From Marinobacter sp. es.048 (GTDB taxonomy: Bacteria > Pseudomonadota > Gammaproteobacteria > Pseudomonadales > Oleiphilaceae), in NCBI RefSeq assembly GCF_900188435.1, contig NZ_FYFA01000001.1, positions 2,170,001 through 2,234,000 on the forward strand: 64,000 bases of DNA. Direction: 5' to 3'. A program made the translations under genes and the position numbers. Positions within the stretch are counted from its first letter, which is position 1, and each line of letters begins with the position of its first letter. Shown piece after piece: positions 3,956 through 28,374 of the stretch. The notes beneath the pieces are model-generated. The model was given only the letters and a program-made list of their open reading frames with translations. It had not been told where the DNA came from and ran no database searches.

Positions 3956-3974
3956 TAGGATGGAACCAGCCAGA

Positions 3975-5522: not shown

Positions 5523-5534
5523 GATCGGCTTCCT

Positions 5535-8030: not shown

Positions 8031-8037
8031 AGCGTCC

Positions 8038-9273: not shown

Positions 9274-9317
9274 GTCCTTTCCCTCGGTGATCGATAGCAT
9301 GTGCACATTAATGCTTT

Positions 9318-9352
9318 TTGACAATTGTTAAAAGTTTACGGCTTGCTATATC
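9318..9352 (+). promoter_or_regulatory. Candidate promoter with overlapping inverted repeat in the divergent interval
   Basis: TTGACAATTGTTAA (9318-9331) is a near-palindrome of the TTGAC-N4-GTyAA type, similar to FNR/ANR half-sites. It overlaps a possible plus-strand promoter: TTGTTA (9325-9330), a 16-nt spacer, then an extended -10, TGcTATATC (9344-9352). A second short palindrome, ATGTGCACAT, lies at 9300-9309 toward the minus-strand gene. Together they fill the 170-bp interval between the two halves of the redox/envelope region, so one regulator could govern both. Hand inspection only. Confidence 0.35.
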
Positions 9353-9443
9353 CTTCGTTTTGAGCCGTAGGCCACGTTATTACATTGCGTTACGTAAAAC
9401 CCTTGGAGCCTGCCAGCGGAACCGACTTAATTTATGTCATGGA

Positions 9444-12128: not shown

Positions 12129-12150
12129 TCCAAGGACTGAAACTCGCACC

Positions 12151-12903
12151 ATGCCCATCGCCATTCTTATGTTTCTTTTGTTGTTGCCGGCCCAGAGCTG
12201 GGCTGGCTGGCTGTGGGGGCAGGCTGAAGATGATGCATTGCAAGTGCAGGTAACGGAGCCCTATGTGTCCTGGCGAACCGGACCGGCAACGGGCTATCCG
12301 GTTTTTCATACCAGCGAAAAAGGGGAATGGCTGACCATTCTTCAGCGCAAGACAAGTTGGATCAAAGTGACGGATACCCGTGGCCGGGAGGGTTGGATAG
12401 CGGTTGCGGATATTGCACAGATGGTGGATGCCACGGGTAATCGTGTGGATCTTCAGGTGCCCGATTTTGAGGCCTTTGGAAGCCGGCGGCTGGAAGCCGG
12501 ATTTATGATGGGGGAATTTGATGGTGCCGCTGTCACGGCAGGCTACGGCGGCTTCTGGATGACCAGAAACCTGTCCGCCGAGCTTTGGGCTTCTCAGATT
12601 CTTGGCAGCGCCTCGGAAATTCGAATGGTCAATGCGAATCTGGTGCATCAGCCATTTCCTGATTGGCGGGTATCACCCTTTTTTACCCTGGGGGTCGGGC
12701 ATATCTGGGTTGACCCCAAGGCCACACTGGCCCAGCCCGAAGAGAGGGATAACAGTATTGGCCATGCGGGGCTTGGTATCCGCGCCTACATTACCGATCG
12801 ATATTTCATCCGTGCCGAAGTGAAGGACTACAAAGTGTTCACTACCCGGTCCACCAACGAAGAAGCGACAGAATGGAAAATCGGACTAAGCATCTTTTTC
12901 TGA
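12151..12903 (+). CDS. SH3-domain outer-membrane beta-barrel protein
   Basis: 250 residues from the ATG at 12151 with CAAGGA upstream. A signal peptide (1-18, ending SWA) precedes a bacterial SH3 domain (about 31-92: VSWRTGPATGYPVFHT, GEWLTILQR, WIKVTDTRGREGWIAVADI). The remaining ~145 residues alternate polar and hydrophobic and end in WKIGLSIFF, a terminal-Phe barrel signal. So it is probably a small outer-membrane barrel with a periplasmic peptidoglycan-contacting SH3 domain. Its frame overlaps the next barrel gene by 31 nt, implying coupled expression. It fits the GltA/GltB-type barrel slot of Agl-Glt machines by position and type; direct homology was not tested. Confidence 0.7.
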   Translation: MPIAILMFLLLLPAQSWAGWLWGQAEDDALQVQVTEPYVSWRTGPATGYPVFHTSEKGEWLTILQRKTSWIKVTDTRGREGWIAVADIAQMVDATGNRVDLQVPDFEAFGSRRLEAGFMMGEFDGAAVTAGYGGFWMTRNLSAELWASQILGSASEIRMVNANLVHQPFPDWRVSPFFTLGVGHIWVDPKATLAQPEERDNSIGHAGLGIRAYITDRYFIRAEVKDYKVFTTRSTNEEATEWKIGLSIFF

Positions 12904-13517
12904 AACCGCTGTGCCTCGGCGCAGGGCTATGCGTAGCCGTGGGCGCCCATGCCCAGGATGATCGGCCGCTGATCGAGCCTGATGTTACCCCGGTGCCGGT
13001 CACCGAGGCGCTGATCGACACCGAGAACTTTGAGGTTGGGGCTTTTGTGGGCGTGCTCAATATCGAGGACTTCGAGTCGTCGCTGCTTTTTGGCGGCAAG
13101 CTCACCTATCACCTCAGCGAGTCTTTCTTCTTCGAAGCAGGAGTCGGATTCGCGGAGGGCGGCGAAACCAGTTTCGAGAAGCTGGCCGGTAACGTCGAGG
13201 TGCTTACCGACAGCGAGCGGGATTACAGCTATTACAACATCAACCTGGGTTACAACGTGCTTCCTGGCGAGGCCTTCCTCACCGAGAACTACGCATTCAA
13301 CACCAATTTCTACCTGATCGCAGGTGCCGGCGCTACCGATTTTGCGGGTGATACCCGGTTTACCCTGAATGCCGGTGCGGGCTATCAGGTTCTGTTGACG
13401 GACAGCGTTGCAGTTCAGATTGGCGTAAGGCAGCACTACTACCGAATAGATGTTCTTGGGGCCGAGAAAACCTCCATGAACACAGAGGTCAGCACTGGCC
13501 TGTCGGTCTTTTTCTGA
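12873..13517 (+). CDS. Small outer-membrane beta-barrel protein
   Basis: 214 residues: basic n-region, signal peptide ending AHA (about 27), a short Pro-rich linker, then about eight amphipathic strands (FEVGAFVGVLNIEDF, YHLSESFFFEAGVGFAEG, FTLNAGAGYQVLL) and a final GLSVFF. It resembles the outer-membrane beta-barrel domain described from myxobacteria (OMP_myx_plus type). The ATG at 12873 lies inside the preceding gene; a GAAGAAG precedes it. It pairs with the SH3-barrel gene, suggesting two barrels working together, as GltA and GltB do in Myxococcus. Barrel call is firm; the specific family is from recognition only. Confidence 0.7.
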   Translation: MENRTKHLFLKPLCLGAGLCVAVGAHAQDDRPLIEPDVTPVPVTEALIDTENFEVGAFVGVLNIEDFESSLLFGGKLTYHLSESFFFEAGVGFAEGGETSFEKLAGNVEVLTDSERDYSYYNINLGYNVLPGEAFLTENYAFNTNFYLIAGAGATDFAGDTRFTLNAGAGYQVLLTDSVAVQIGVRQHYYRIDVLGAEKTSMNTEVSTGLSVFF

Positions 13518-13534
13518 TTACAGGAGCAATGGTT

Positions 13535-14032
13535 ATGAAAGCATCCATAAAATCATTGGCGGTGGCGGGCGTCCTGGCCTGTCTTAGCCCCATGGCCGGC
13601 GCCGAGGCCATCAATGTGCCAGCTCCGGATTTCACCCTGGAGAGCCGTTCCGGCGAAAATCTGAGGCTGGAGGACCATCGTGGCGAAGTGGTGATGCTGA
13701 ACTTCTGGGCGTCATGGTGTGGCCCCTGCCGCCAGGAAATGCCGCTGATGGATGAGCTTTACAGCCAATACAAGGATCTCGGCTTCACGATTCTGGCGGT
13801 CAACGTGGATGAGAATCGGGAAGAAGCTCATCGTTTCCTGGACAAGGTGCCCGTGAATTACCCGATCCTTTACGATCCGGAGAGTTCGGTGAGCGAGCTT
13901 TATGAGGTGCAGGCCATGCCAACCACCGTGATGATTGATCGCGATGGTAATGCCCGTTATCTCCATTACGGGTACCAGCCGGGTTACGAAGACGAATACG
14001 AACAGCAGATTCGTGAACTGGTGCGCGAGTAA
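13535..14032 (+). CDS. TlpA-like exported thioredoxin (thiol-disulfide oxidoreductase)
   Basis: 165 residues. ATG 13535 is preferred over ATG 13529 because AGGAG ends 8 nt before it. A signal peptide (ends AGA-EA) is followed by an AhpC-TSA/TlpA thioredoxin fold: PAPDFTLESRSG, redox motif WCGPC (Cys62, Cys65), and cis-Pro loop AMPTTVMIDRDG. TlpA-family proteins reduce or isomerise exported cysteines, including CxxCH apocytochromes and copper sites. It sits between barrel genes and the cysteine-tailed DUF4266 lipoprotein, so its substrate may be that protein's two C-terminal cysteines or the neighbouring apocytochromes (inference). Confidence 0.88.
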   Translation: MKASIKSLAVAGVLACLSPMAGAEAINVPAPDFTLESRSGENLRLEDHRGEVVMLNFWASWCGPCRQEMPLMDELYSQYKDLGFTILAVNVDENREEAHRFLDKVPVNYPILYDPESSVSELYEVQAMPTTVMIDRDGNARYLHYGYQPGYEDEYEQQIRELVRE

Positions 14033-14050
14033 TTTTCGGACGGAACGTTT

Positions 14051-14287
14051 ATGCGTAATTTGTCGATCTTCACTGTGTCCGCTCTTCTGGTCGCCACGTT
14101 CACGGTTTCCGGATGCAGTTCAGTAAAGCCGTGGGTGAAACCCTACGAACGGGATAATCTGGCGGATCCGGTCATGAGTCTCAGTCGTCACGGCAAAGCG
14201 GATTCCTACATGCATCACGTCTATCAGTCCCGGGAGTCTGCGCGGGGAGCGGAAGGCGGTTCGGGAGGTGGTTGTGGCTGCAACTGA
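14051..14287 (+). CDS. DUF4266 mini-lipoprotein with Gly/Cys tail
   Basis: 78 residues. The signal ends in lipobox TVSGC (Cys22), then VKPWVKPYERDNLADPVM, a histidine pair near 55 (YMHHVYQSRES) and an extreme C-terminus GGSGGGCGCN with Cys75 and Cys77. This is the DUF4266 signature; the family has no known function. The two closely spaced cysteines plus two histidines in a tiny lipid-anchored protein suggest metal or redox cofactor binding, or a modified peptide tail (inference). The final codons overlap the start and ribosome-binding site of the DUF3570 gene, so the two are translationally coupled and probably act together. TlpA-like thioredoxin lies immediately upstream. Confidence 0.85.
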   Translation: MRNLSIFTVSALLVATFTVSGCSSVKPWVKPYERDNLADPVMSLSRHGKADSYMHHVYQSRESARGAEGGSGGGCGCN

Positions 14288-15434
14288 CAGGCGACGGTTG
14301 GTACGGTCCGCATTCCTTTTGCTCGCGCTGGTGCTGTTCGGGCATCAGGCGATTGCGGCAACCCTTCCGGTCGATAACGTCGATGTTCTCTATCACCGCT
14401 ATGACGGCGGTGGCATGATCATCGACGGTCCGTCAGTATTGGTGCGCAAGGGTATCGGCTCCCAGGTTTCGTTTTCTGGACAGTACTATGTCGATTCCGT
14501 TTCGGCCGCCTCTGTCGACGTCCTGGCCACGGCCAGCCCCTATGAGGAAGAGCGCAACGAGTACACCTTTGGCGTGGATTATCTGCACGACAAATCCATT
14601 ATGAGCCTGGGGTTCACCAACAGTACGGAAAACGATTACGAAGCCAATACCGTTTACTTCTCGCTCAGTCAGGAGTTTTTCGGTGGCATGTCAACGGTCA
14701 CCATGGGCTATGCCAGTGGCTGGGACGAAGTGGGCCGGGTTGGCAACGATTCCTTCAGCGAGGAAGCCGATCGTCGGAACTATCAGCTCGGACTGAGCCA
14801 GGTCGTCACCCGCAACAGTCTGGTAGGCCTGGATCTTGAGGTGGTTACGGATGAGGGCTTCCTGCAGAACCCTTACAGACAAAACCGCTACATCGACCCG
14901 AACGATTCCACAGCGTTCCTGTATCAACCAGAGCGTTATCCGGAAACCCGGACCAGTACCTCCGTGGCCTTGCGAGCGCTCTACTATCTGCCGTATCGCG
15001 CCTCAATTCGCGGTGAATACCGCTATTTTTCCGATACCTGGGGTATCAACGCCCATACGGTCGAACTGGGATACGTGCACGGATTGAACCAGCACTGGAC
15101 CCTTGAGGGTTCCGTTCGCTACTACAGCCAGAGCGAGGCGGACTTTTACAGTGATCTTTTCCCGTTCGAGAATTCCCAGACACACCTTGCCCGGGACAAG
15201 GAGCTCAGCTCTCTTTCGGGAACAACCTTGGCGGTGGGCGCGGTATACGAATGGAAGCAGACGTCTCTCCCCGGCATTGATCGCCTGCAGTTCAGCTTAC
15301 TGGTGGACTGGCTGAATTTTGACTATGACAACTTCCGGGATGTCACCGCAGCCGGGGACTTTCTCCCCGGCGAAGAACCCCTTTATTCCTTCGATGCCTA
15401 CGTAACCCGGGCGTCGTTGATTCTTGAATACTGA
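14274..15434 (+). CDS. DUF3570 family protein, probable outer-membrane barrel
   Basis: 386 residues from the GTG at 14274, chosen because GGGAGG ends 5 nt upstream; another GTG lies at 14268. Signal peptide ending AIA, then DVLYHRYDGGGMIIDGPSVL, the family's N-terminal feature. Long amphipathic strands follow (QVSFSGQYYVDSVSAAS, EYTFGVDYLHDKSIMSLGFT, ASIRGEYRYFSDTWGINAHT) and the protein ends ASLILEY, an aromatic C-terminus. Strand density is consistent with a 14- to 18-strand barrel. DUF3570 genes are typically found with DUF4266, TlpA-like and ApbE genes, as here. Function unknown; a port or docking barrel for the DUF4266 lipoprotein is a reasonable guess. Confidence 0.82.
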   Translation: MAATDRRRLVRSAFLLLALVLFGHQAIAATLPVDNVDVLYHRYDGGGMIIDGPSVLVRKGIGSQVSFSGQYYVDSVSAASVDVLATASPYEEERNEYTFGVDYLHDKSIMSLGFTNSTENDYEANTVYFSLSQEFFGGMSTVTMGYASGWDEVGRVGNDSFSEEADRRNYQLGLSQVVTRNSLVGLDLEVVTDEGFLQNPYRQNRYIDPNDSTAFLYQPERYPETRTSTSVALRALYYLPYRASIRGEYRYFSDTWGINAHTVELGYVHGLNQHWTLEGSVRYYSQSEADFYSDLFPFENSQTHLARDKELSSLSGTTLAVGAVYEWKQTSLPGIDRLQFSLLVDWLNFDYDNFRDVTAAGDFLPGEEPLYSFDAYVTRASLILEY

Positions 15435-15453
15435 GCATGCAGGAAGAACGACC

Positions 15454-16005
15454 ATGGCCACTTGCTTGAACCATCGAATCCCGGCGCTTTTAGCAGTATT
15501 GACCCTCGCCCTGACAGGCCCCGCATTTGCGCAGACCAATCCTGGGACGGAGAAGGACGACCCAGCCGTCGCCGAGCAGGTGGAGGCGCTCAAGAAGAAA
15601 GTGATACGCCTGAACCGTGACCTGTTCATCCTCGAGGAGGATCTGCTTTTTCCGGCCAATACCCAGGTTGCCGTGTTTCTCAGCGTTGATACCGGAAAGT
15701 TTCTGAAGCTGGATGCAGTGAAGCTGAAGGTCGACGATGAGATCGTTGCCTCTCATCTCTATACGGCGCGTCAGGTGAGCGCACTTGAACGCGGCGGCAT
15801 GCAGCGGCTGTTCGTGGGCAACCTCAAATCCGGAGTACACCAGGTCACGGCATTCGTTGAGGGAATCGGGCCGGATCAGCGGCCTTACAAGCAGGCGGCC
15901 TCCCTGGAGTTTGAGAAGGGCACTGGAACAGCCGCTCTGGAAATCCGTGTTGAAGATCGCTCCTCCAACTACCAACCCTCCGTATCCATTATGGAGTGGG
16001 AGTAA
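15454..16005 (+). CDS. Conserved exported protein of unknown function
   Basis: 183 residues; ATG 15454 with AGGAAG 7 nt upstream. A signal peptide ending AFA is followed by a short acidic stretch, a coiled-coil helix (VAEQVEALKKKVIRLNRDL), then a beta-rich domain (TQVAVFLSVDTGKFLKLDAV, GGMQRLFVGNLKSGVHQVTA) that looks immunoglobulin- or transthyretin-like. Similar proteins in gammaproteobacterial databases are, as I recall, sometimes mislabelled AraC regulators; there is no helix-turn-helix here. Located between the DUF3570 gene and the TPR genes with gaps of 19 and 8 nt. Likely a periplasmic scaffold or adaptor of the machine (inference). No firm family name. Confidence 0.65.
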   Translation: MATCLNHRIPALLAVLTLALTGPAFAQTNPGTEKDDPAVAEQVEALKKKVIRLNRDLFILEEDLLFPANTQVAVFLSVDTGKFLKLDAVKLKVDDEIVASHLYTARQVSALERGGMQRLFVGNLKSGVHQVTAFVEGIGPDQRPYKQAASLEFEKGTGTAALEIRVEDRSSNYQPSVSIMEWE

Positions 16006-16013
16006 GCCGCGTC

Positions 16014-17957
16014 GTGGGATTGAAAGCAAGCCAGCCGTCAGGTCGACGCCCGTTCGTTTACGCGGGTGCCCTACTGTGGCTGATGATGGCCCCGGTCCAT
16101 GCCGACGAGGCGCAACCCGAGCGGGCGAAGGACCTTCGTTATGGTTGGGCGCTGTACGAATACCATCAGGGTAACGCCTTCGAGGCTCTGACCCAGCTGG
16201 CCGTGGCGCGCGAACGGGGCGGCATCGAAGGACACGGAGATCACCCGGCTCTCGTCGAGGGCGGGCTCATGCTGTCCTGGGGGATGACCCGAGAGGCGAG
16301 CAGGTTGTTCAGGCAGCTACTCGGGGCTGATGGCGCCGGCAGCAATCTGTCGCCCGATGTGCGTAACCAGGCCTGGTTCTATCTCGGCAAGGTGTTCTAC
16401 CTTGAGGGGAATCAGGCGCTCGCAAGCGAGAACCTCGATCGTGTCGATGGCGAGATACTGGCCGAGGCCGACCACGATCTGTTCCGCGAATGGATTTATC
16501 TACGCTCCCGGCTGGCCATGATGTCTGCCCGCCCTGATGATGAACCCGATCTGGCCTCGCTTCGGGAGCAACTGGATGACACGGACATCTGGTCCCTTTA
16601 CCTCCGGTACAATTCCGCGGTCTCCGCTCTCGATGCGGGAGCCGGAGCCGCCGCCGAAGAGGAACTGAAAAAGCTCATCGCCATCCTCGACGAGTCCATT
16701 GACTCCGTCGAGCCAGATGCCGAACGGGAGGGCCTGCGCGGCCGCGCTCGCCTCTCGCTTGCGGGCCTGTATCTGCGTGACAACCAGTTTGAGGCAGCTC
16801 TGGAGGTCCTGGGAGCCATGCCCCTGACTGGCGTTTTCGCCGATCAGGCTCTCTTTGACTACGCCGTTGCCGCGGCGGGCCAGGGCAGGCCGGAGAGGGC
16901 TCTCGACGCCCTTGATACTCTCGCGAACCGTGAACTGTTTTTGCCCTGGCGCCAGCAGGTTCCCTTTGCCCGGGCCTATGTTCTTGAGCAGATGAACGCT
17001 CCGCAGCGAGCATTGCCCGCGTTTAAACAGGCAGCCGACCATTACGAGGCCCGTATCAGGGAGCTCGGAAATATCCGGGATCGGCTCGATGAAGAAAATC
17101 TGATGGCCCAGCTCGAGTTCAGCCGCGATAGCGACGGGATTCTTACAGATTCCTATGGCCGGCTGCGCGTGCAGCCCCTCGAATCTGGTATGGCGGAAGT
17201 GCTGGCTTCGGAAACGTTCCAGCAGGCTCTTGCCGAATTGAACGAACTCTACCGAATGCAGTCCTTCATCGCCGAGCGGCAGTCCAGGTTCCAATCGTTC
17301 CGGATCATGCTGGAGACCCGTGAGCAGCAACGGCAGATTCGTATTGCCCAGACCCGTCGGGCACTCGAAACCCAACAGGCAGACCAGTGGGAGCAGTTGC
17401 ACGAGGACTTCACGGACAGAATTTCCTCGGCACTGGCAGACGAAGATGCGGGATTCTTCATGACCTCGCAACAAAAGGCGCTCAGCGACAAGCTTGATGA
17501 GGTTGAGAAAACTCTGGCGAATTTGCCCAACGACGCGACGACCGCCAGGCAGCGTGCGACTTATCGGCGGATGCGTGCCTACTTCGACTGGTGGATTGCG
17601 GATGACTATGGGACCAATCGCTGGGCTGCGCAAAAACAGCTAAGGCAACTGGATCGCGAGATGGAGCGCTTTCAGACCCAGCGGCAACGGGTTGAAACCC
17701 GGATGGCCGACGATGCCCGCCATGCCGAACTGGCTCGGCGAATCGCTGCCAGCGAACGGGAGCTCGCGACCCTTGGAACAGAGGTGTCCGAGGCATTAGG
17801 CCGTGCCCGGCAAACCCTCCTGACTCAGGTCGACCGTATGCTGGCAGCCCAGCAACAGGAGCTTAATGGATACCTGCTGGCCTCGCGCCACGCCCAGGCG
17901 AGGCTGGCGGACCAGTTGTTCCGCGCATCGCAAAATGCAGGTGCCGGTGATGAATAA
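16014..17957 (+). CDS. Large exported TPR/coiled-coil protein
   Basis: About 647 residues from the GTG at 16014 (GGGAG 11 nt upstream); GTG 15996, inside the previous gene, is an alternative. A signal peptide ends HAD. Residues of about 35-350 are helical TPR-like repeats (RYGWALYEYHQGNAFEALTQL, QAWFYLGKVFYLEGNQALASENL, GQGRPERALDALDTLAN). Residues of about 380-640 are long Arg/Gln/Glu-rich helices, probably coiled coil. It resembles the periplasmic TPR components (GltC/GltD type) of Agl-Glt systems in size and setting. It overlaps the next TPR gene by 8 nt. Expected role: bridging inner-membrane motor and outer-membrane proteins across the periplasm (inference). Confidence 0.65.
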   Translation: MGLKASQPSGRRPFVYAGALLWLMMAPVHADEAQPERAKDLRYGWALYEYHQGNAFEALTQLAVARERGGIEGHGDHPALVEGGLMLSWGMTREASRLFRQLLGADGAGSNLSPDVRNQAWFYLGKVFYLEGNQALASENLDRVDGEILAEADHDLFREWIYLRSRLAMMSARPDDEPDLASLREQLDDTDIWSLYLRYNSAVSALDAGAGAAAEEELKKLIAILDESIDSVEPDAEREGLRGRARLSLAGLYLRDNQFEAALEVLGAMPLTGVFADQALFDYAVAAAGQGRPERALDALDTLANRELFLPWRQQVPFARAYVLEQMNAPQRALPAFKQAADHYEARIRELGNIRDRLDEENLMAQLEFSRDSDGILTDSYGRLRVQPLESGMAEVLASETFQQALAELNELYRMQSFIAERQSRFQSFRIMLETREQQRQIRIAQTRRALETQQADQWEQLHEDFTDRISSALADEDAGFFMTSQQKALSDKLDEVEKTLANLPNDATTARQRATYRRMRAYFDWWIADDYGTNRWAAQKQLRQLDREMERFQTQRQRVETRMADDARHAELARRIAASERELATLGTEVSEALGRARQTLLTQVDRMLAAQQQELNGYLLASRHAQARLADQLFRASQNAGAGDE

Positions 17958-20835
17958 TCGGATGGCCGGCAGGACTGTTAAAGGCCTTCTCATGGTTACG
18001 GCCCTTGTCATGGCGAGTGGCTGCCAGATGTTGCAGTCGATGATGCCTGCTGGTGGCGAAGAAATGCCGCGAGTCCGTGAAGGCACTCTGGCTGCGCTTC
18101 CGGCGATCGAAACGCGGCAGGAAAGTGCAGATGCAGGGGCCGGCAGCGGCCCCCCAGAAGATGTTTCCATTGAAACGGTGATGGACAGTTACAAGGCGCT
18201 TTTGCCACTCGTAGAGGATCCCCGGAAGCAGGTTACCATCAGGCATCGGTTGGCCGATCTGGAATTCCAGCGTGCGGAGCGGAAAATGGCGGATTCCGCT
18301 GTCGATGAACTCTCCGGAGCCATTGATGCCTACCAGCGTCTTCTGTCGGAATATCCAGAGCGCGAGGGCAATGACCAGATCTATTATCAGCTTGCCAGAG
18401 CCTGGGAGCTCCGAGGCGCGACGCCGCAGCAGCTTGATGCCCTGAATACTCTGGTCCGCCGCTACCCGGATTCAGAATACTGGGTTGAGGCCCAATTCCG
18501 CCGCGGCGATCTGTTGTTTATCGATGGCCGATACCGGGAAGCGAAGCAGGCCTTCGACGAGGTTACCCTCGCCAGTCAGGAGCACATGGCCGATGCCTCG
18601 TTCCTGGTGAACGCGCATTACATGAAAGGCTGGAGTCTGTTCAAGCAGGCGCAATACCAGGAGGCGCTCTTCAGTTACGTAGAAGTGCTTGATCTGGTGA
18701 TGCCTGAGGGCAAGCCGGTGGCAGACGTCGATCAGCGGAGCCAGACGCTGATCGAAGATCTGTTCAGGGTAGTAGGGCTGTCCCTGTCGTACCTTGACGG
18801 AGCGGAAACCCTCCAGGCGCTTTTCCGCCAAACGGGTGGTCGCCCATACGAAATCCTGGTCTACGACCGCTATAGCGAGCTCTTGCTCGAGAGAGAGCAA
18901 TATAGTGATGCCATCGATGTCTTCGAGGCCTACATAGAAGACCATCCGGCGAGTCCCTGGGCGCCGCGTTACCACATCCGGATCATCGATACCCTTGAGC
19001 TGGCCGGTTTCACCCGTACGATCCCTGAACGAAAGGCCGGCTTTGTCAGCCTTTACGGAATTTACAGCGATTACTGGCAGTCAGCGGGTTCCGATGCGAT
19101 TGGTTTTATCGAGCAACAACTGGAACAACTGTTGCCGGAACTGGCGGACCGCCAGTATTTGCTGGCAGGGGAGGCGACGGATGATCAGCAGGCGGACGAT
19201 CATTACCGCAAAGCCGCCAGTTATTACGCCGAATTTGCGACTACCTTCCCGGACCATCCCCGCACACCGGAGCGTCTGTTCCTTCTGGGTGAGACGTATC
19301 TGGAGCTGGAAGACTGGCCGGCAGCAATCGCAGCCTTCGAACGCGTGGCCTATGACTATCCGGAAGACACGGTAGCCGATCGGGCAGCTGAAGCCGGGTA
19401 TGCCTCGGTGCTGGCATTCCGGGAGTACTCGCAAACCTGGGAGAGTGAGCCAGTATCGGAGCGGATGGTCTATCAGGAGCTGCAACAACTGAACCGGCTG
19501 CGGTTTGCAAATGCATTCCCCGGCGACGCCCGGGCACCTGCGGTGTATTACATTGCGCTGCAGCGTGAATTTGACCTGAACAACTGGGAAGAGACTGTCA
19601 ATATGGCGGCCCGACTTGTTACCTGGCAGCCCACGCCTCCGGCTGAATTGACGACGGAAGCTTTGCTGTTATCCGGGCACAGCCTCTCCGAACTGGCCCG
19701 ATACGCCGAGGCGGAACAGGCTTACCGTGACGCCTTGGCAACAATGGCCGAAGACGATGAACGCAGAAGCGGCGTTCGTGAAAATCTGGCCGCCGCGGTC
19801 TATCGACAGGCGGAGCAGTTGGCTGATGCCGGAAATGTGGAGGCTGCGGTCAGCGAATTCCTGCGAGTCGGGACGGCTGTTCCAGAATCCGCTCTGCGGG
19901 CAAACGCCGAATACGATGCTGCCTCACTCCTTATCACTGCCAATCTTTGGGACCAGGCTATCGGTGTGCTGACCAGTTTCAGGCGGTCTTTCCCGGACCA
20001 CGAGCTGATCGACACAGTCCCTGCAAAACTGGCGTTGGCCTACCGTGAAACGGAGCAGTGGGAGCGAGCCGCCGACGAACTCCAGCAAATGGTATCCCTC
20101 GCTAAAACGCCGGAAGAGCGAAGGGAGAACCTGTTGATTGCAGCAGAGCTGTACGATCAGGCCGGTAACCGGGAAAAGGCGATTGATACCTGGCGAAATT
20201 ACGCCAACAGCCACCCGGAGCCGACGGACGTCTACATGGAAGCAGCCAATCGGCTGGCTGAGCTCTATCAGGAAGACGGGGATGCCGAAAGCAGGGATTA
20301 CTGGTTGCGAAAGCAGATGGAAACGGTGGACCGGGACCTGGACGCCGCGGACGATCGCATGCGTTACCTTGCGGCGTCAGCCTCTGCAATCCTCGCCCGC
20401 GATGCCCTTGCCCGGTATGACAGCATCAGGCTGACTCTGCCACTCAATCAAAGCATGACAGCGAAGACTGATGCACTTGAAAGAGCGGTCAACGCTTACA
20501 AGAAGACGGCCAGCTATGGCCTTTCATCATTTGCAACCGAGGCCGGTTACCAGATCGCCCACATCTATGCACGCCTCGGTGCCGATCTCATGGACTCGGA
20601 GCGGCCCACCGGATTGAGCGAGCTTGAACTGGCGCAGTACGAGCTTCTCCTGGAAGAGCAGGCCTACCCGTTTGAGGACAACGCCATCGATATCCACGAG
20701 CAGAATATCCGGCGGGCCCGGGAGGGCATTTTCGATGAATGGGTCAAGCGCAGCTACGAGTCCTTGAAAGCCCTGTTGCCCGGACGTTATCGGAAAGAAG
20801 AAGTTACCCAAGGGGTTGTCTATGAGCTCGATTAA
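17950..20835 (+). CDS. Giant TPR lipoprotein
   Basis: About 961 residues from the ATG at 17950, which overlaps the preceding stop by 8 nt; a further in-frame ATG lies at 17962. Lipobox VMASGC anchors it to a membrane, presumably the outer one because Gln follows Cys. The body is almost entirely TPR-like helical hairpins with recurring patterns such as AIDVFEAYIEDHPASPWAPRY and YYAEFATTFPDHPRTPERLF, the outer-membrane-lipoprotein style of TPR (YfiO/BamD-like). In position and architecture it matches the large TPR proteins of gliding machines (GltD/AgmU or GltE class). Co-translated with its neighbours. Role is likely structural. Confidence 0.68.
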   Translation: MNNRMAGRTVKGLLMVTALVMASGCQMLQSMMPAGGEEMPRVREGTLAALPAIETRQESADAGAGSGPPEDVSIETVMDSYKALLPLVEDPRKQVTIRHRLADLEFQRAERKMADSAVDELSGAIDAYQRLLSEYPEREGNDQIYYQLARAWELRGATPQQLDALNTLVRRYPDSEYWVEAQFRRGDLLFIDGRYREAKQAFDEVTLASQEHMADASFLVNAHYMKGWSLFKQAQYQEALFSYVEVLDLVMPEGKPVADVDQRSQTLIEDLFRVVGLSLSYLDGAETLQALFRQTGGRPYEILVYDRYSELLLEREQYSDAIDVFEAYIEDHPASPWAPRYHIRIIDTLELAGFTRTIPERKAGFVSLYGIYSDYWQSAGSDAIGFIEQQLEQLLPELADRQYLLAGEATDDQQADDHYRKAASYYAEFATTFPDHPRTPERLFLLGETYLELEDWPAAIAAFERVAYDYPEDTVADRAAEAGYASVLAFREYSQTWESEPVSERMVYQELQQLNRLRFANAFPGDARAPAVYYIALQREFDLNNWEETVNMAARLVTWQPTPPAELTTEALLLSGHSLSELARYAEAEQAYRDALATMAEDDERRSGVRENLAAAVYRQAEQLADAGNVEAAVSEFLRVGTAVPESALRANAEYDAASLLITANLWDQAIGVLTSFRRSFPDHELIDTVPAKLALAYRETEQWERAADELQQMVSLAKTPEERRENLLIAAELYDQAGNREKAIDTWRNYANSHPEPTDVYMEAANRLAELYQEDGDAESRDYWLRKQMETVDRDLDAADDRMRYLAASASAILARDALARYDSIRLTLPLNQSMTAKTDALERAVNAYKKTASYGLSSFATEAGYQIAHIYARLGADLMDSERPTGLSELELAQYELLLEEQAYPFEDNAIDIHEQNIRRAREGIFDEWVKRSYESLKALLPGRYRKEEVTQGVVYELD

Positions 20836-21391
20836 GGCCTGCGGACTCTTTCTTTTCGTGATGTTTTCGCTTTCGGGGTGTGTGACGGCTCCGACGCCCC
20901 CGGAGTCTGCGGTAGAAGTTGAACAGGCTGCACTGGAAGCGTCATTCGCCAAGGCAGTGAGTGCGATGGAGGAGGGAAATCTTGCCGAAGCAAAAACCCG
21001 ATTCGAGCAACTGGCGAGCGACTATCCCGCAAAAGCCGGCCCCATGGCCAACCGTGGCATTATTGCTTTCAAGGAAGGGGATACCGAGACCGCGAAAAGT
21101 TGGTTTGAACGCGCGCTGGCGGTGAGTCCTGAACATGTCCAGGCGTTGAATCATCTGGGAGTGATTGCCCGGAGCGCTGGAGAATTCGATGAAGCAGAAC
21201 GATATTATCGCGCCGCCCTATCTGCTGATCCGAATTACGCGCCTACGATTCTTAATCTGGCCTTCCTGCTTGATATCTACCTGGGTAAACCTGCCGAGGC
21301 GGTTGCCCTTTATGAGCGTTATCAATCGGCGGCCAGCGAGCCGCACCCCAGACTGGAAGACTGGATCTTCGATGCGAAAAACAGAATCTGA
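20822..21391 (+). CDS. Small TPR lipoprotein
   Basis: 189 residues; ATG 20822 follows AAGGGG by 6 nt and overlaps the preceding gene by 14 nt. Lipobox SLSGC (Cys20). Residues of about 45-170 form three to four TPRs (AVSAMEEGNLAEAKTRFEQLA, GIIAFKEGDTETAKSWFERAL, HLGVIARSAGEFDEAERYYRAAL, LNLAFLLDIYLGKPAEAVALY), followed by EDWIFDAKNRI. This is the layout of PilF-type pilotins and of GltE/AglT, an outer-membrane TPR lipoprotein of Myxococcus gliding. I favour an outer-membrane assembly or docking factor for this cluster's machine. Not a PilF substitute, as no type IV pilus gene is nearby. Confidence 0.72.
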   Translation: MSSIKACGLFLFVMFSLSGCVTAPTPPESAVEVEQAALEASFAKAVSAMEEGNLAEAKTRFEQLASDYPAKAGPMANRGIIAFKEGDTETAKSWFERALAVSPEHVQALNHLGVIARSAGEFDEAERYYRAALSADPNYAPTILNLAFLLDIYLGKPAEAVALYERYQSAASEPHPRLEDWIFDAKNRI

Positions 21392-21406
21392 TGTGGAATA
21401 TTTGAT

Positions 21407-21712
21407 ATGAAACGTCCTGCACTGATCGCTCTTGCAGTCTCCGCCCTGATGCCCACGGCGCCCACGCTTTACGCCCAGGACTCGCCCGGCGTTGTGACTA
21501 TTGAAGGCACACGAATCCGTGGTGATCAGGAAGTGCCCACAGTGATGTATCTGGTGCCTTGGCAGCCACCGGAAGTAGACGAGTTGCGTGCCCCGGACGA
21601 GCGCCTGATGGTTGATCAGGGCCTCACGCCCCTGGAGCGCTACGAGTTCCAGCGATTTATCAAGTACCACGAGGCGTTCATCAGGCAGACCCAGGCATCA
21701 ACTGGGGAATAG
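21407..21712 (+). CDS. Small exported protein of unknown function
   Basis: 101 residues with a clear signal peptide ending LYA-Q (about 23). The mature part starts DSPGVVTIEGTRIRG, then TVMYLVPWQPPE, and ends in a charged helix (LERYEFQRFIKYHEAFIRQT). The IEGTRIRG stretch recalls the plug/TonB-box region of receptors, but no barrel follows. It is the last gene before a 139-bp interval and the ExbB-like gene, 15 nt after the TPR lipoprotein. I do not recognise a family. Given its place it may be an accessory of the motor or of the outer-membrane complex. Confidence 0.6.
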   Translation: MKRPALIALAVSALMPTAPTLYAQDSPGVVTIEGTRIRGDQEVPTVMYLVPWQPPEVDELRAPDERLMVDQGLTPLERYEFQRFIKYHEAFIRQTQASTGE

Positions 21713-21789
21713 AGTGTGGTGCGCGTCACATTCTGAGTGTGTCCCTGCGCAAGATTAAACAAACCCTCACACAGACTTTCGCGAACTTA

Positions 21790-21805
21790 CCCTCCAAGGG
21801 GAGGG
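21790..21805. other. Short hairpin in the interval before the ExbB-like gene
   Basis: CCCTCC AAGG GGAGGG forms a 6-bp stem with a 4-nt loop about 47 nt upstream of the ExbB-like start. No T-run follows, so it is not a convincing terminator. The 139-bp interval may hold an internal promoter, but I found no good -35/-10 pair. Confidence 0.3.
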
Positions 21806-21851
21806 GCGCGCATAGACTGATCTGAAAACCGGACCATGGAGTGCCCAGAAA

Positions 21852-22559
21852 ATGATCGATACCGCCGTTCGCTTCTTCCAGGAAGGTGGCTTTTTTATGT
21901 TTCCGATTGCTGTTGTGCTGATCGTCGGACTCATTGTTGCCATTGAACGTTACGTTTACCTTTCCGCCCAGAAACTGACCAACCGTCGGGACTTCAACCG
22001 CCTGCATCAGATGATCGCCAAGCGTGACCTGAAAGGCGCCCTGAACTACACCCAGGAATCCGGCAGTGCCATGTCGACCATGATCGGCTTCGGCCTCCAG
22101 CGCCTGGCCCGCCGCCAGGGTCGTGAAGAGATCGAATACGCGATGGAAGAGGGGTTGCTGGATGTGATGCCGCGGTTGGAAAAGCGCACCCAGTATCTGG
22201 CAACGCTGGCCAACATTGCCACGCTGCTTGGTCTGCTGGGTACCATTATCGGGTTGATTGCAGCGTTTACGGCGGTAGCTGCAGCGGATCCGGCCCAGAA
22301 GGCGAGCCTCCTGTCCCAGAGTATCTCGGTTGCCATGAACACCACCGCCTTCGGCCTTATGTCTGCTATTCCAATGCTGCTGATCCACTCACTGCTGCAG
22401 ACCAAGACCAATGAGATCGTCGACAGCTTCGAGATGGCGGGCATCAAGGTGCTGAACCTGCTCAGCGATGGTTCCGGCAGTAAGACCGCCGCTCAACCAC
22501 AGGGTCAGAATGCCGCTGCGCCGGCACAGGTAGCGACTCCGGCCGGTAGCCCGGCCTGA
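21852..22559 (+). CDS. MotA/TolQ/ExbB-type proton channel protein
   Basis: 235 residues; GGAG lies 9 nt before ATG 21852. Three membrane segments: one near the N-terminus (FFMFPIAVVLIVGLIVAIERY), then the paired core helices LATLANIATLLGLLGTIIGLIA and SVAMNTTAFGLMSAIPMLLI. Between TM1 and TM2 is the usual cytoplasmic domain. The GLLGT and TTAFGLMSAIP motifs are diagnostic of TolQ/ExbB/AglR. The tail is Ala/Gln-rich and low complexity. With two ExbD-like partners downstream it should form a proton-driven motor, as AglR does with AglQ and AglS in Myxococcus. It is too short and lacks the PomA/MotA cytoplasmic charges expected for a flagellar stator. Confidence 0.9.
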   Translation: MIDTAVRFFQEGGFFMFPIAVVLIVGLIVAIERYVYLSAQKLTNRRDFNRLHQMIAKRDLKGALNYTQESGSAMSTMIGFGLQRLARRQGREEIEYAMEEGLLDVMPRLEKRTQYLATLANIATLLGLLGTIIGLIAAFTAVAAADPAQKASLLSQSISVAMNTTAFGLMSAIPMLLIHSLLQTKTNEIVDSFEMAGIKVLNLLSDGSGSKTAAQPQGQNAAAPAQVATPAGSPA

Positions 22560-22584
22560 TAACCAGTCAGAAGGATGTCAGGCC

Positions 22585-23097
22585 ATGAGACGGAAGCATC
22601 GTCGCCTACAAAGTGAGGCCGATCTCGACATCACGCCCTTCATGAACCTCATGATTGTGCTGGTGCCGGTACTGCTGCTGAATATGGTGTTCGCCCACAC
22701 CAGCGTTCTGGAACTCAACTTCCCGACCGGTGAGAGCCTGTCGGCCGAGCAGGCGGAAGAGCTGCAGATCCAGGTGGTGATCTATGAGGATCGCCTGGTC
22801 GTTGCGGATAACCAGGGCGGCGTTATCAAGAACATCCCCCAGCGCGAGGGCGAGTATGATTTCGTTCTGCTTAAGGATGTCATGAAGGAAATCAAGAGCC
22901 GTGTGCCAGACAAGAAGGATGTGATTATTATGCCGTCCCAGCAGACGTCCTATCAGTCTCTGGTCTCGGTAATGGACACGGTGCGCTCATACGAGGCGGT
23001 GGTGGCTGGTAGTTTGGTGGAAGCGGAGCTGTTCCCCGAGATCTCTCTCGGCGATGCGCCCGCCCAGCCTTCGGGATCCGCGGAGGTGAGTTCATGA
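22585..23097 (+). CDS. ExbD/TolR-like protein with Asn in place of the TM Asp
   Basis: 170 residues: short basic cytoplasmic N-terminus (RRKHRRLQ), one membrane helix (PFMNLMIVLVPVLLLNMVFA), then a periplasmic ExbD domain (VVIYEDRLVVADNQGGVIK, MPSQQTSYQSLVSVMDTV). In ExbD, TolR and MotB-related proteins the helix starts with a conserved Asp (P-x-x-D) that carries protons; here the aligned residue is Asn21 (codon aac). The companion gene keeps Asp. It overlaps that gene by 4 nt, so both are made together, probably as a heterodimer within the ExbB-like channel. Similar in layout to AglQ/AglS. Loss of the Asp suggests a structural rather than proton-carrying subunit (inference). Confidence 0.87.
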   Translation: MRRKHRRLQSEADLDITPFMNLMIVLVPVLLLNMVFAHTSVLELNFPTGESLSAEQAEELQIQVVIYEDRLVVADNQGGVIKNIPQREGEYDFVLLKDVMKEIKSRVPDKKDVIIMPSQQTSYQSLVSVMDTVRSYEAVVAGSLVEAELFPEISLGDAPAQPSGSAEVSS

Positions 23098-23594
23098 AAG
23101 AATCTGCCAAGGCCCGCCGCCAGAAACGCCATTACCGGCGCAATAAAAGCCAGGGAAAGATGAACCTGGTCTCGTTGATGGATATCTTCACGATCCTTGT
23201 GTTCTTCCTGATGGTGAACTCCTCCTCCGACGTACAGGTATTGAACCAGAACAGCACCATCAAACTGCCGGATTCCACCGCTCAGCAACCTCCTGGTGAT
23301 GTCTTGGCCCTGACCGTTACGGACCGGGATATCCTGGTAAACGGTCGGCTGGTGGTGAAACGCGACGCGTTCCAGACGTTTGACGGACAGGTGGAGCCTT
23401 CCCTGAAGCAGGAACTGGACTATCAGGCCAGTCGCTCGTCGTCACCTGCGCCGGATTCGGGGCGACCCATTACCATTCTTGCAGACCGCGAACTGCCCTA
23501 CGAGCTGCTGAAAAAAATCATGTCCACCTGTGTGGACGCCGGTTACGCCAGTATTTCCCTGGCGGTTAATCAGCGTGCGGAACAGGGAGCCTGA
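23094..23594 (+). CDS. ExbD/TolR-like protein with conserved TM Asp
   Basis: 166 residues. Very basic N-terminus (KARRQKRHYRRNKSQGK), a membrane helix with the canonical proton-binding Asp30 (LVSLMDIFTILVFFLMVN), then a periplasmic domain ending ADRELPYELLKKIMSTCVDAGYASISLAV, the classic ExbD C-terminal segment. Its start codon overlaps the stop of the first ExbD-like gene (ATGA), and its stop lies 5 nt before the TonB/AgmX-like gene. It should supply the proton path for this motor. Belongs to the AglQ/AglS/TolR group by context. Confidence 0.9.
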   Translation: MKESAKARRQKRHYRRNKSQGKMNLVSLMDIFTILVFFLMVNSSSDVQVLNQNSTIKLPDSTAQQPPGDVLALTVTDRDILVNGRLVVKRDAFQTFDGQVEPSLKQELDYQASRSSSPAPDSGRPITILADRELPYELLKKIMSTCVDAGYASISLAVNQRAEQGA

Positions 23595-23599
23595 CCACG

Positions 23600-24598
23600 A
23601 TGGATTATAGGTACGGATTGCCCTGGAATCAGGAGCGTGGTGAACGTAAGCGGTTGTTGGTCGCCGCTGTCTTTGTGATGCCATTATTCCTCGCATTTGC
23701 AGGTTATGTCAGCTGGGTAGAGCTGCCAGAACGTGACAGGCAGGAACAGGAAGCTCTGCCGCCTCAGCTGGCCAAGCTGATCATCGAGAAAAAGGAGCCC
23801 CCAAAACCGGTGTTGCCCGAGCCGGAGCCCGAACCGCCGAAGCCTGAGGAAAAGCCGGTGGAACAGGCCAAACCTGAGCCCAAGCCGGAGCCGGTTCCTG
23901 AACCGGTGATGCCGGAACCCGAGCCGGAGCCTCAGGTGGCCGAAAAACCTGAGCCCAAGCCAGAACCCAAGCCTGAAGAGGTCGCCAAGGCGCGGGAGAA
24001 GGCAAAGAATACCGGTATTCTGGCAATGGGGAACGAACTGAAGAAACTCAGTTCGCTTGCGGAGTCGGTCAAGCTGGATGGCCCGGTTGCCAATACAGCG
24101 GAACCTATTGCCCGCAAAACCGGTGATACTCTGGCCTCCCGCGCGACCGCTAGCGCGAAGAGCAGTGGGGTGAACGAGGAAGCGCTCAATCGGGAGGCCG
24201 GTCAGGTCGCCCTGGCCGAGCGCCAGCGCGCGGAAGTCGCCGAAGCAGAGAGAGTTGCTGCGGTCAAAGAGGCGGCACGCAAGGAACAGCAGGAAACTGC
24301 GGCCAGAACCCGGAGCAAGGAAGAGTTGCGCCGGACCATGGATGCCAACAAATCCGCGATCTATAGCATTTACAACCGGGAGCTTCGGCGCAAACCGTCG
24401 CTGCAGGGAAGTATTACCCCGGAGTTGGTTATTGAGCCGAACGGTGCAGTATCGAGTTGTTCGGTGGTGGAATCTACACTCAATGAGCCAGCACTGGAGA
24501 GCAAGATCTGCAATCGTCTGAGGTTGGTGGATTTCGGGGCCCGACCGGGCGTTGATCAAACCAAGATCCGTTATCCGATCGAATTGCTGTCCAGCTAG
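23600..24598 (+). CDS. TonB-like energy transducer with AgmX/PglI C-terminal domain
   Basis: 332 residues. Cytoplasmic N-terminus, one membrane helix (about 19-40), a long Pro/Glu/Lys-rich stalk (about 60-135, many PEPKPEP units) that could span the periplasm, then an Ala/Arg/Glu-rich helix and a C-terminal domain from about 245. That domain has SIYNRELRRKPSLQGSITPE, VIEPNGAVSSCSVVESTLNE and RLVDFG, the AgmX/PglI (GltG/GltJ) variant of the TonB C-terminal fold. In Myxococcus such proteins link the AglRQS motor to periplasmic Glt proteins. Two Cys in the domain could form a disulfide. Last gene of the run; an inverted repeat covers its stop. Confidence 0.85.
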   Translation: MDYRYGLPWNQERGERKRLLVAAVFVMPLFLAFAGYVSWVELPERDRQEQEALPPQLAKLIIEKKEPPKPVLPEPEPEPPKPEEKPVEQAKPEPKPEPVPEPVMPEPEPEPQVAEKPEPKPEPKPEEVAKAREKAKNTGILAMGNELKKLSSLAESVKLDGPVANTAEPIARKTGDTLASRATASAKSSGVNEEALNREAGQVALAERQRAEVAEAERVAAVKEAARKEQQETAARTRSKEELRRTMDANKSAIYSIYNRELRRKPSLQGSITPELVIEPNGAVSSCSVVESTLNEPALESKICNRLRLVDFGARPGVDQTKIRYPIELLSS

Positions 24599-25987: not shown

Positions 25988-26053
25988 CGGGAGCTTCTCC
26001 GCCAGTCATCAAGCGGGCCATAGTGCCACAACGGCGGATGCGGGGCGAGAAGC

Positions 26054-26079
26054 GGTGGCCCACAGGATTGCGGGCCACC
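26054..26079 (-). terminator. Candidate hairpin after phaC
   Basis: GGTGGCCC (26054-26061) and GGGCCACC (26072-26079) form an 8-bp stem with a 10-nt loop, starting 8 nt past the phaC stop on the minus strand. No T-run follows, so termination is uncertain. Confidence 0.35.
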
Positions 26080-26086
26080 CAAAGGT

Positions 26087-27889: not shown

Positions 27890-27898
27890 GACTATCCC

Positions 27899-28231: not shown

Positions 28232-28374
28232 AGACACAACTCCTTTGCATACAGGTTTGATATGGTTCCATTTTGCCCCATCCAGCATGACGCAATTTTG
28301 ACAAGCATCAATCCGGGGTTCAGCTTATGCTTTACTGTAGGAACATGTTTTCCCGGCAAGGCAGGAGGCGCCAC

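Follow-up and report, generated by a model that had tools for sequence, protein, structure and literature searches.

A conserved locus of Marinobacter sp. es.048 joins a machine of the Agl–Glt type to a set of predicted redox proteins. We find it somewhat probable that this is a trans-envelope machine powered by the proton-motive force (pmf) and working on a redox complex in the outer envelope, by assembling it, moving it or supplying it with energy. The genomes surveyed strongly support the pairing, and the pairing in turn suggests the action. The operon is real and its gene calls are correct, but the co-directional run is part of a larger object composed of two separable modules, a machine module (g7–g15, 15454–24598) and a redox module (2939–15434).

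Organisation of the locus

The window is the whole stretch of 64,000 nucleotides that was analysed, and its features are collected in Table 1. The earlier note reported one co-directional run in which neighbouring genes overlap or lie no more than 25 nt apart, with one exception of 139 nt, which is what we see for the 14 same-strand genes g2–g15 (12151–24598); the sole larger gap lies between g11 (end 21712) and g12 (start 21852). Where does the run begin? The gap between the HzsA-like g1 and g2, which share a strand, is 22 nt, so the run starts one gene earlier than was thought, and a border at 12151 splits the redox module in two. Three divergent genes on the minus strand (A, B and C, 9324–3975) and apbE are also members of the conserved neighbourhood. 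The machine module encodes a coiled-coil protein, three TPR proteins, a small exported protein, an ExbB/ExbD/ExbD set and a transducer with an AgmX/PglI tail. The redox module encodes ApbE, a Tat-exported protein, two exported CxxCH proteins, an HzsA-like, predicted di-heme lipoprotein, an SH3-barrel protein, a barrel, TlpA, DUF4266 and DUF3570. The reading of the block as one complete Agl–Glt-like machine thus gives way to a core, g7–g15, and a separable redox module. The two outer-membrane barrels are present as described, g2 with a weak barrel match beside its SH3 domain and g3 with a strong one, but they belong, like DUF4266 and DUF3570, to the redox module and not to the Glt-like core. 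TlpA-type genes adjoin either module in a survey of homologous loci.

Table 1. Features of the two modules, with positions in the window
Feature	Position	Strand	Module	Evidence
ApbE, FAD:protein FMN transferase	2939..3955	+	redox	PF02424 265.9 bits; second independent search agrees
C, Tat-exported, 515 aa, tentatively alkaline-phosphatase-superfamily-like fold	3975..5522	-	redox	RR signal by eye; Foldseek
B, lipoprotein, two CxxCH, LamG/ConA-like domain	5535..8030	-	redox	PF13385 70.8 bits; lipobox by eye
A, exported, one CxxCH, remotely PSCyt3/PSD2-like	8038..9324	-	redox	PF07624/PF07627 weak matches in homologs
g1, HzsA-like lipoprotein, two CxxCH, PD40 repeats; first of co-directional run	9444..12128	+	redox	PF18582 HZS_alpha 56.5 bits; PF07676 PD40
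g2, exported SH3 domain and outer-membrane barrel, 250 aa	12151..12903	+	redox	PF06347, PF08239 above cut-off; barrel below cut-off
g3, outer-membrane beta-barrel, OMP_myx_plus family, 214 aa	12873..13517	+	redox	TIGR04565 158.9 bits, cut-off 60
g4, TlpA/ResA-like thiol-disulfide protein	13535..14032	+	adjoins either	PF08534, PF00578
g5, DUF4266 lipoprotein, C-terminal CXC	14051..14287	+	redox	PF14086 83 bits
g6, DUF3570, first flavinylation-type site SAAS	14268..15434	+	redox	PF12094 141 bits
g7, exported coiled-coil protein, module marker	15454..16005	+	machine	no Pfam match; 20-member alignment
g8, exported TPR/coil protein, GltC-like by size and position	15996..17957	+	machine	TPR structures by profile match
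g9, large TPR lipoprotein, GltD-like by size and position	17950..20835	+	machine	TPR families; lipobox by eye
g10, small TPR lipoprotein, GltE-like by position	20822..21391	+	machine	TPR families; lipobox by eye; GltE model 40.5 bits, cut-off 225
g11, small exported protein	21407..21712	+	machine	upstream of ExbB in most motor-bearing loci
g12, ExbB/TolQ/AglR-like channel	21852..22559	+	machine	PF01618 99.6 bits
g13, ExbD-like, Asn in place of membrane Asp	22585..23097	+	machine	PF02472 53.6 bits
g14, ExbD-like with membrane Asp	23094..23594	+	machine	PF02472 64.9 bits
g15, transducer, one TM helix and Pro/Glu/Lys linker (by eye), AgmX/PglI tail	23600..24598	+	machine	NF033768 67.4 bits, cut-off 40

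The machine module and its relatives

The protein classes assigned by the earlier note were borne out: three exported TPR proteins (g8–g10) of which two are predicted lipoproteins, one ExbB/TolQ-like and two ExbD/TolR-like proteins, and a transducer tail of the AgmX/PglI type. The match is not to generic Tol/Ton families only, as the tail exceeds the AgmX/PglI cut-off; in Pfam the sole match of the g15 C-terminus is TonB_C, below cut-off, and a Pfam scan found no FHA domain. The TPR nature of g8 is visible only by profile (A4 against TPR structures, best E 3.8e-31), with nothing over cut-off in Pfam itself. Of 24 further genomes in the genus, 8 encode a protein 54–98% identical to g9. The marker g7 has 29 invariant columns in its alignment and is present in 60 of 274 gammaproteobacterial genomes. 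At the membrane Asp position, a site essential on AglQ (PMC9120999), homologs of g13 have N in 94 of 112 cases and D in 18, whereas D is found in 111 of 112 homologs of g14.

How close is this module to the gliding machinery of Myxococcus xanthus? Agl–Glt and Agl–Nfs likewise have an ExbB-like protein (AglR), two ExbD-like proteins (AglQ and AglS), an AgmX/PglI-tailed transducer, exported TPR proteins and outer-membrane proteins, as well as a motor able to serve different cargo complexes: AglRQS is common to Glt and Nfs, and Agl–Nfs moves a surface polymer (PMC3858216). There are also differences. GltG of Myxococcus has an FHA domain (PMC3169522, Table 1) and g15 does not; a 4132-aa GltI-like gene is absent from the block; the GltG, GltJ and GltE equivalog models stay far under their cut-offs (45.3/650, 15.7/450 and 40.5/225 bits); one ExbD-like subunit, g13, carries the Asn; and both g7 and the cytochrome/flavin module are additional. 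The lack of FHA and of any match near the GltE, GltG and GltJ cut-offs speaks against strict membership in the gliding set. Also comparable is the core complex of Luciano 2011 (PMC3169522), which put gammaproteobacterial Agl–Glt core clusters in print, two Marinobacter among those mentioned; as the earlier note stated, no function is given for them in the portions of that article available to us, where the word 'cytochrome' is also absent. The core was judged insufficient for motility there, with gliding undocumented in most bacteria that bear it. It consists of linked AglRQS and GltC, D, E and G-like genes plus one extra gene lacking a myxobacterial homolog. The anatomy of g7–g15 fits this complex as far as its published description goes, and our guess is that g7 may be the extra gene.

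The redox module

The profile of g1 matches hydrazine synthase alpha (PDB 5c2v, E 3.3e-20). Like HzsA of anammox bacteria, g1 has an HZS_alpha middle domain (cut-off 26.6 bits) and two CxxCH motifs, and its PD40 repeats are found by Pfam; it differs in being a lipoprotein, in its gene setting and in scoring 51.2 bits with the HzsA equivalog model, far under the cut-off of 800. In B the CxxCH motifs stand at 75 and 190, and LamG was found in 12 of 12 members scanned. CxxCH is kept in 67 of 68 homologs of A, whose family matches PF07624 PSD2 in 14 of 17 members (best E 7.1e-6) and PF07627 PSCyt3 in 9 of 17, with E up to 1. The likeness of A to the planctomycete PSCyt3/PSD2 cytochromes is weak, the window member reaching 12.7 bits against a Pfam cut-off of 27; B, for its part, has LamG and cytochrome c matches. 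No family of Pfam or NCBIfam matches C. Its AF2 model (pLDDT 75.8) finds sulfatases and alkaline phosphatases as best Foldseek matches, at a TM of only about 0.2–0.3. DUF1501 gave no match to C by hmmscan and a non-significant one by hhalign (probability 6.8%, E 0.0054, control A5 0.1%), in an alignment that ends at GG[YW]D[YT]H. All barrel matches of g2 are below cut-off. The name of the g3 family, TIGR04565, points to myxobacteria.

Another feature of the module is a flavinylation gene set that is complete at the locus, with thioredoxin-like, DUF4266, DUF3570 and ApbE members, ApbE lying 10.3 kb upstream of DUF3570. The CXC C-terminus is present in 64 of the 64 g5 homologs found. DUF3570 (g6), presumably a barrel, has SAAS at site 1 and no canonical [ST]GA[ST] flavinylation site; 17 of 69 homologs are canonical at site 1. 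Within the available stretch, apbE lies near 18 of 39 redox-type loci and 2 of 33 others. TlpA, DUF4266 and DUF3570 had been noted as extra parts with no counterpart in the gliding set. They are there, and DUF4266 and DUF3570 do fall outside the Glt-like core, but the gene set is already known as a flavinylation-type system (PMC8238504). Meheust et al. 2021 counted 316 thioredoxin-like/DUF4266/DUF3570/ApbE clusters without DsbD. The families here are identical, and the locus departs from those clusters in having SAAS in place of [ST]GA[ST]; DsbD is absent among the block's genes. The terms ExbB and TPR do not occur in the part of their main text available to us.

Pairing of the modules across genomes

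Is the neighbourhood of the two modules more than an accident of one genome? We took g7 as machine marker. Of the gammaproteobacterial genomes that carry it, 38 of 60 encode an HzsA-like protein, and of those that lack it, 1 of 214 does; for C the counts are 33 of 60 and 2 of 214. The association follows close g7 (at least 128 bits): HzsA-like proteins occur in 36 of 38 genomes with close g7 and 2 of 22 with distant g7 only or, by family, in 25 of 26 against 1 of 14. A draw of 249 genomes from the phylum agrees, as 6 of 6 HzsA genomes have close g7 and none of three distant-g7-only genomes has HzsA; each of these two groups shares two genomes with the class sample. The Fisher tests treat genomes without regard to relatedness, and much of the co-occurrence is that of a single linked block. 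The block is conserved: at least one redox-family gene lies within the available stretch in 67 of 80 named g7 loci, an association that is not chance, and the same is true of 53 of the 59 named loci whose available sequence extends 9 kb or more upstream of g7. Two main arrangements are seen, C-B-A divergent from g1–g6 followed by g7–g15, and g2-g1 divergent from A-B-C followed by TlpA and g7–g15.

Separation of the two modules does not abolish the pairing. Of 13 named genomes without an HzsA-like gene in the g7 stretch, 11 have one elsewhere; among the 13 are six with no redox gene in an upstream stretch of 9 kb or more, and five of these six have the HzsA-like gene elsewhere. Conversely, an over-cut-off AgmX tail is found elsewhere in the genome for motor-less redox-type loci in 15 of 15 sampled genomes and likewise in 4 of 4 named cases, adjoining ExbB-ExbD-ExbD in 9 of 9 genomes examined for it. 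This recalls the sharing of AglRQS between Glt and Nfs in Myxococcus. There are counter-cases. In G034 the frames of A, B and C are long and open, the hzsA-like gene is split and there is no machine; G035 has C, B, A and g2–g6 but no HzsA-like gene, and its relative G178 (72% complete) has g2–g6 only; G017 has the machine, DUF3570, TlpA and barrels but neither an HzsA-like gene nor C; and the L127 genome gave no HzsA match. Redox-linked members are not one clade in the g9 tree (9 changes), and a minimum of 8 changes is required by the g7 tree, although its starred branches force only 1. Since 20 of the 22 distant-g7-only genomes have the core and no HzsA-like protein, the core is a general machine. 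Co-occurrence shows at best dependence, not the direction of force.

What does the machine do?

The earlier reading of a proton-driven trans-envelope machine is kept; its output, then called undescribed, now has a hint in the conserved partner, a set of CxxCH proteins. This redox pairing suggests that the machine serves an outer-envelope redox device rather than movement. In the inner membrane, an ExbB-ExbD-ExbD channel for protons would drive the transducer g15, and a TPR scaffold made up of the exported g8 and the lipoproteins g9 and g10 would carry its stroke to the outer membrane. The partner there would comprise the HzsA-like and LamG lipoproteins (both di-heme, as predicted from CxxCH), the mono-heme PSCyt3-like protein, the Tat-exported AP-like protein, the barrels g2 and g3 and the TlpA/DUF4266/DUF3570/ApbE thiol-flavin set. 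The pmf would be used to export, assemble or move this predicted heme complex at the surface or the outer membrane, so that it could act on something external, be it an electron donor, an electron acceptor or a polymer.

Could the machine nevertheless be a gliding or adhesion system, with the redox genes as accessories or chance neighbours? Its protein classes are those of Agl–Glt, the family name of g3 has a myxobacterial ring and the LamG domain of B could bind a surface. However, the partners kept across arrangements are CxxCH proteins, the Glt models and FHA are missing as described above, and the 2011 work judged the core insufficient for motility; we find this explanation quite improbable, and gliding as output is not supported. 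That the modules merely travel jointly, by descent or transfer, is highly improbable: joint inheritance is expected for the many loci that are a single linked block, but pairing persists with the modules apart and with the motor elsewhere, in two arrangements and in nearly all families with close g7.

Two further explanations keep the modules working together. In an energised uptake system, the redox module would oxidise or cleave an external polymer or ligand and the motor would import the product through barrels, TonB-like. The ExbB/ExbD/TonB-type motor, the LamG domain, the barrels g2 and g3 and perhaps DUF3570, which we take to be a barrel, would suit this. So would, weakly, the AP/sulfatase-like C, and PSCyt genes elsewhere lie near sulfatases and carbohydrate-binding modules (PMC5615132, as far as available to us). 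But the window proteins that were scanned include no TonB-dependent receptor, the barrels g2 and g3 are small and the TPR scaffold is unlike TonB systems; we consider uptake unlikely. The machine might instead secrete or anchor the hemoproteins once and have no lasting mechanical role; TPR lipoproteins and the SH3-barrel suit an export path, and the motor can be encoded at another place in the genome. Repeated work is suggested instead by the dedicated proton motor and by the precedent of Agl–Nfs, which moves a surface polymer (PMC3858216), and we give such a one-time aid a low probability. Returning to a pmf-powered machine acting on a redox complex, a bolder and tentative version is that a dedicated Agl–Glt-type class operates a predicted surface cytochrome/flavin complex by pmf, a mechanically energised extracellular redox device whose motors may be shared among cargo complexes as in Myxococcus.

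Significance

The gammaproteobacterial Agl–Glt core was published in 2011 with no job assigned to it, and the module with which it is tightly paired now offers a candidate. The pairing sets redox-linked cores apart from unlinked ones and places HzsA-like lipoproteins, PSCyt3-like proteins, DUF3570 and DUF4266 in one testable system, which is present in cultured marine genera such as Marinobacter.

Gene run and gene orders

The earlier note described a co-directional run of genes in the window, and gene calls and domain matches bear it out as described. Its start had been placed one gene too late: g1 lies upstream of the SH3-barrel gene g2 across a gap of 22 nt. This g1 (HzsA-like) is a lipoprotein with PD40 repeats; it carries two CxxCH motifs and the middle domain of hydrazine synthase alpha, and its profile matches PDB 5c2v with an E of 3.3e-20. 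On the opposite strand, pointing away from g1, are A with a single CxxCH, B with two and a LamG domain, and C with a Tat-type signal; ApbE is farther out. Lipoboxes were recognised by eye in B, g1, the DUF4266 protein g5 and the TPR proteins g9 and g10. The downstream neighbours of the run, a sodium:solute symporter, a PhaC synthase and a phasin-like gene (the last by eye), are ordinary.

How is this run organised in other genomes? The coiled-coil family of g7 (20-row alignment) served as the survey marker. The named loci are the best 80 of 502 confirmed g7 matches, and the class sample holds 72 long g7 loci, with the window's own, G067:C97, G186:C69, two G264:C143 fragments and G076:C301 excluded; the named set overlaps the unnamed one at L106 (G017), L126 (G043), L057 (G296) and L058 (G291). 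A locus was called redox-type if its stretch holds any of A, B, C, g1, g2, g3 (barrel), g5 or g6 (DUF3570), or if its g7 reaches at least 200 bits with the g7 profile built here. Among these best 80 of 502, 17 are titled Marinobacter, all titles name gammaproteobacteria or unclassified Proteobacteria, and two main gene orders recur. The first has C-B-A on the minus strand (C mostly outside the stretch covered), then g1-g6 and g7-g15, and is found in Marinobacter, Oleiphilus, Hahella, Alteromonas, Aliiglaciecola and Shewanella. The second, chiefly from metagenome bins, has g2-g1 on the minus strand, then A-B-C, TlpA and g7-g15, without DUF4266 or DUF3570. A third set, Kangiella and Aliikangiella, has only TlpA, g7-g15 and ApbE at the locus itself, and some loci have g1-g6 with A-B-C absent within reach of the stretch. 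Within the same best 80 of 502, redox genes accompany g7 in 53 of the 59 loci covered for at least 9 kb upstream, and all three motor genes are present in 59/63 covered for at least 9 kb downstream. A relative of g9 is found in 29/38 near genomes (3 of these 29 by weak TPR matches only) and, at 54-98% identity, in 8 of the 24 further genomes examined from the genus, many with paralogs of ~30%. Two further proteins recur: one of ~174 aa (a CxxxxCH stretch in one example) in nine redox loci where A, B and C are absent from the stretches covered, and one of ~470 aa with a zinc-ribbon-like N-terminal stretch near C in the second order.

Locations of the features discussed
Feature	Locus, genome or contig	Positions	Strand
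Downstream neighbours of the run	window	24623-28288	minus
A, B, C and split HzsA-like gene	L229 (G034)	6438-13797	
Second core of the window's genome	L134 (G000:C2:37000-56999)	~9871-12049	
Unlinked core, Hahella	L224	first 2 kb	
Unlinked core, Oleiphilus bin	L226	first 2 kb	
Lone motor set	L220 (G179)	3318-12999	
Motor-less redox-type g7 loci	G035, G036, G056, G064, G075, G077, G081, G128, G178, G179, G193, G197, G203, G204, G206		
~174-aa protein	L132, L145, L148, L150, L168, L176, L185, L195, L199		
~470-aa protein	L084, L087, L088, L089, L090, L109; by eye L232, L233, L236		
N-terminal matches to the HzsA-like profile	G318:C31, G320:C1, G324:C1		

One operon or two modules?

Are these genes a single-function operon in which g2 and g3 serve as the Glt barrels? 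Thirteen named genomes were chosen whose g7 stretch lacks the HzsA-like gene, and 11 of them, all but those of L106 and L127, carry this gene elsewhere; in the stricter subset of six (at least 9 kb upstream, no redox gene there) it is elsewhere in five. When the second place was examined in 14 genomes (16 stretches), 12 had C-B-A next to g1-g2 together with others of g3-g6; the stretches of G317 and G326 are among those ended by contig ends, and in G075 and G203 the two halves of the redox module lie apart from each other. On one contig, the modules are separated by ~24 kb (G184), ~16 kb (G322), ~1.1 Mb (G320) and ~105 kb (G498); in the remaining genomes they are on different contigs, and where these are short the modules may be adjacent. 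Because these second-place stretches carry redox genes apart from g7, g1-g6 with A, B and C form one module, which includes the barrels g2 and g3, and g7-g15 form another. The single-operon reading is rejected because, at separated sites, g2 and g3 are found with the redox genes. In three genomes the HzsA-like profile also matches, by its N-terminal part, open frames of ~1650-1716 aa, perhaps a larger relative.

The class sample comprises 274 genomes taken evenly across the class; g7 occurs in 60 of them, the HzsA-like protein in 39 and C in 35. The HzsA-like protein is present in 38/60 genomes with g7 vs 1/214 without (Fisher p 9e-30, kinship ignored), a count independent of any bit threshold for g7, and C in 33/60 vs 2/214 (Fisher p 1e-23, kinship ignored). 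With a threshold of 128 bits, chosen post hoc at the gap from 128.5 to 113.7, the HzsA-like protein is present in 36 of 38 genomes with a close g7 and in 2 of 22 with just a distant one. Each family is represented by one or a few genomes; counted by family, the figures are 25/26 with close g7 vs 1/14 with distant g7 only. In a draw of 249 genomes from the phylum, all six HzsA genomes have a close g7 and none of the three with distant g7 only has HzsA (two of the six and two of the three are shared with the class sample); the matches listed are all in the window's class, the number of genomes drawn from other classes not being given. The pairing of redox and machine modules is well supported. 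The trees do not point to one origin of the redox-linked cores: the g9 tree (FastTree) has nine changes and the g7 tree eight, and neither shows one clean redox clade. In G034, A, B and C stand in long open frames, with the HzsA-like gene split over two frames and without the machine; the tail search found no AgmX tail (C-terminus of the transducer g15) in this genome, which lacks g7.

Where is the motor?

Fifteen sampled genomes have a motor-less redox-type g7 locus, meaning at least 7 kb covered downstream of g7 without an ExbB/ExbD match (G076 and G187 were excluded as incomplete stretches). An AgmX tail over the cut-off is encoded elsewhere in 15/15, as in all four named cases (Hahella, an Oleiphilus bin, two other bins). 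ExbB-ExbD-ExbD-transducer stand together in all nine of these genomes that were inspected, as a lone four-gene set in G056 and G193; the motor of G204 is known from its tail match only. Among the 23 motor-bearing redox-type genomes, a further tail over the cut-off is clear only in G137 and G167, leaving aside G239, G048 and G093, where contig ends cut the loci short. Second g7 loci occur in 10/15 motor-less genomes vs 3/23; the tail counts are preferred because the decayed copy in the window's genome was counted there as a second locus. We infer that a distant motor drives the redox-type core, an arrangement resembling Myxococcus, where AglRQS is reported as common to Glt and Nfs (PMC3858216). 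The lone motor set of G179 adjoins type VI secretion-like and phosphatase-like genes (by eye).

The membrane Asp is retained in g14 in 111/112 cases, the lone exception being the decayed second copy in the window's genome. In g13 the position holds Asn in 94/112, and all 18 with Asp are in redox-type loci. Because Asp is kept in g14 and is mostly Asn in g13, in most loci one ExbD-type subunit probably carries protons.

The decayed second copy is a remnant with g7, a 46-aa exbB piece and short exbD and transducer pieces, without g9. Read by eye, its neighbours are a MoxR-like AAA gene and one resembling VWA/CoxE. In Hahella and the Oleiphilus bin, the unlinked core begins beside a gene of the same kind as this remnant does (by eye), so cores of this type may have a partner of their own.

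Redox proteins

One CxxCH is found in 67/68 homologs of A and two in 63/72 of B; g1 homologs have two in 60/79, three in 10 and fewer in 9, some of the genes being incomplete. All 64 DUF4266 homologs end in CXC. The first sites of DUF3570 (n=69) read [ST]GA[ST] in 17 and [ST][AS]A[ST] in 48, the pattern being unmatched in 4. Judged by its sequence, A is a remote relative of PSD2/PSCyt3; nothing is given as known of PSCyt function in the available text of He 2017 (PMC5615132). For a model of C, Foldseek gives matches from the alkaline phosphatase superfamily that superpose poorly, and its predicted fold is tentatively of that type. Membership of C in DUF1501 is not supported, as the profile comparison is not significant.

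Relation to known systems

Homology to Glt is judged here from NCBIfam models and from Luciano 2011 (PMC3169522). That paper describes the gammaproteobacterial core as being of unknown function and names two Marinobacter in this context. The set of thioredoxin-like, DUF4266, DUF3570 and ApbE proteins is reported by Meheust 2021 (PMC8238504), in whose main text, as far as available, ExbB and TPR are both absent. A search thin on subscription journals and without bioRxiv preprints found no literature linking this set with the Agl-Glt core, and a search by name for a Marinobacter biofilm locus gave no match.

Is the core then a gliding machine? On the tests of Agl-Glt membership, gliding is rejected as the best reading. 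The preferred reading is that g7-g15 would form a trans-envelope machine, driven by the proton motive force and dedicated to a putative heme/flavin complex.
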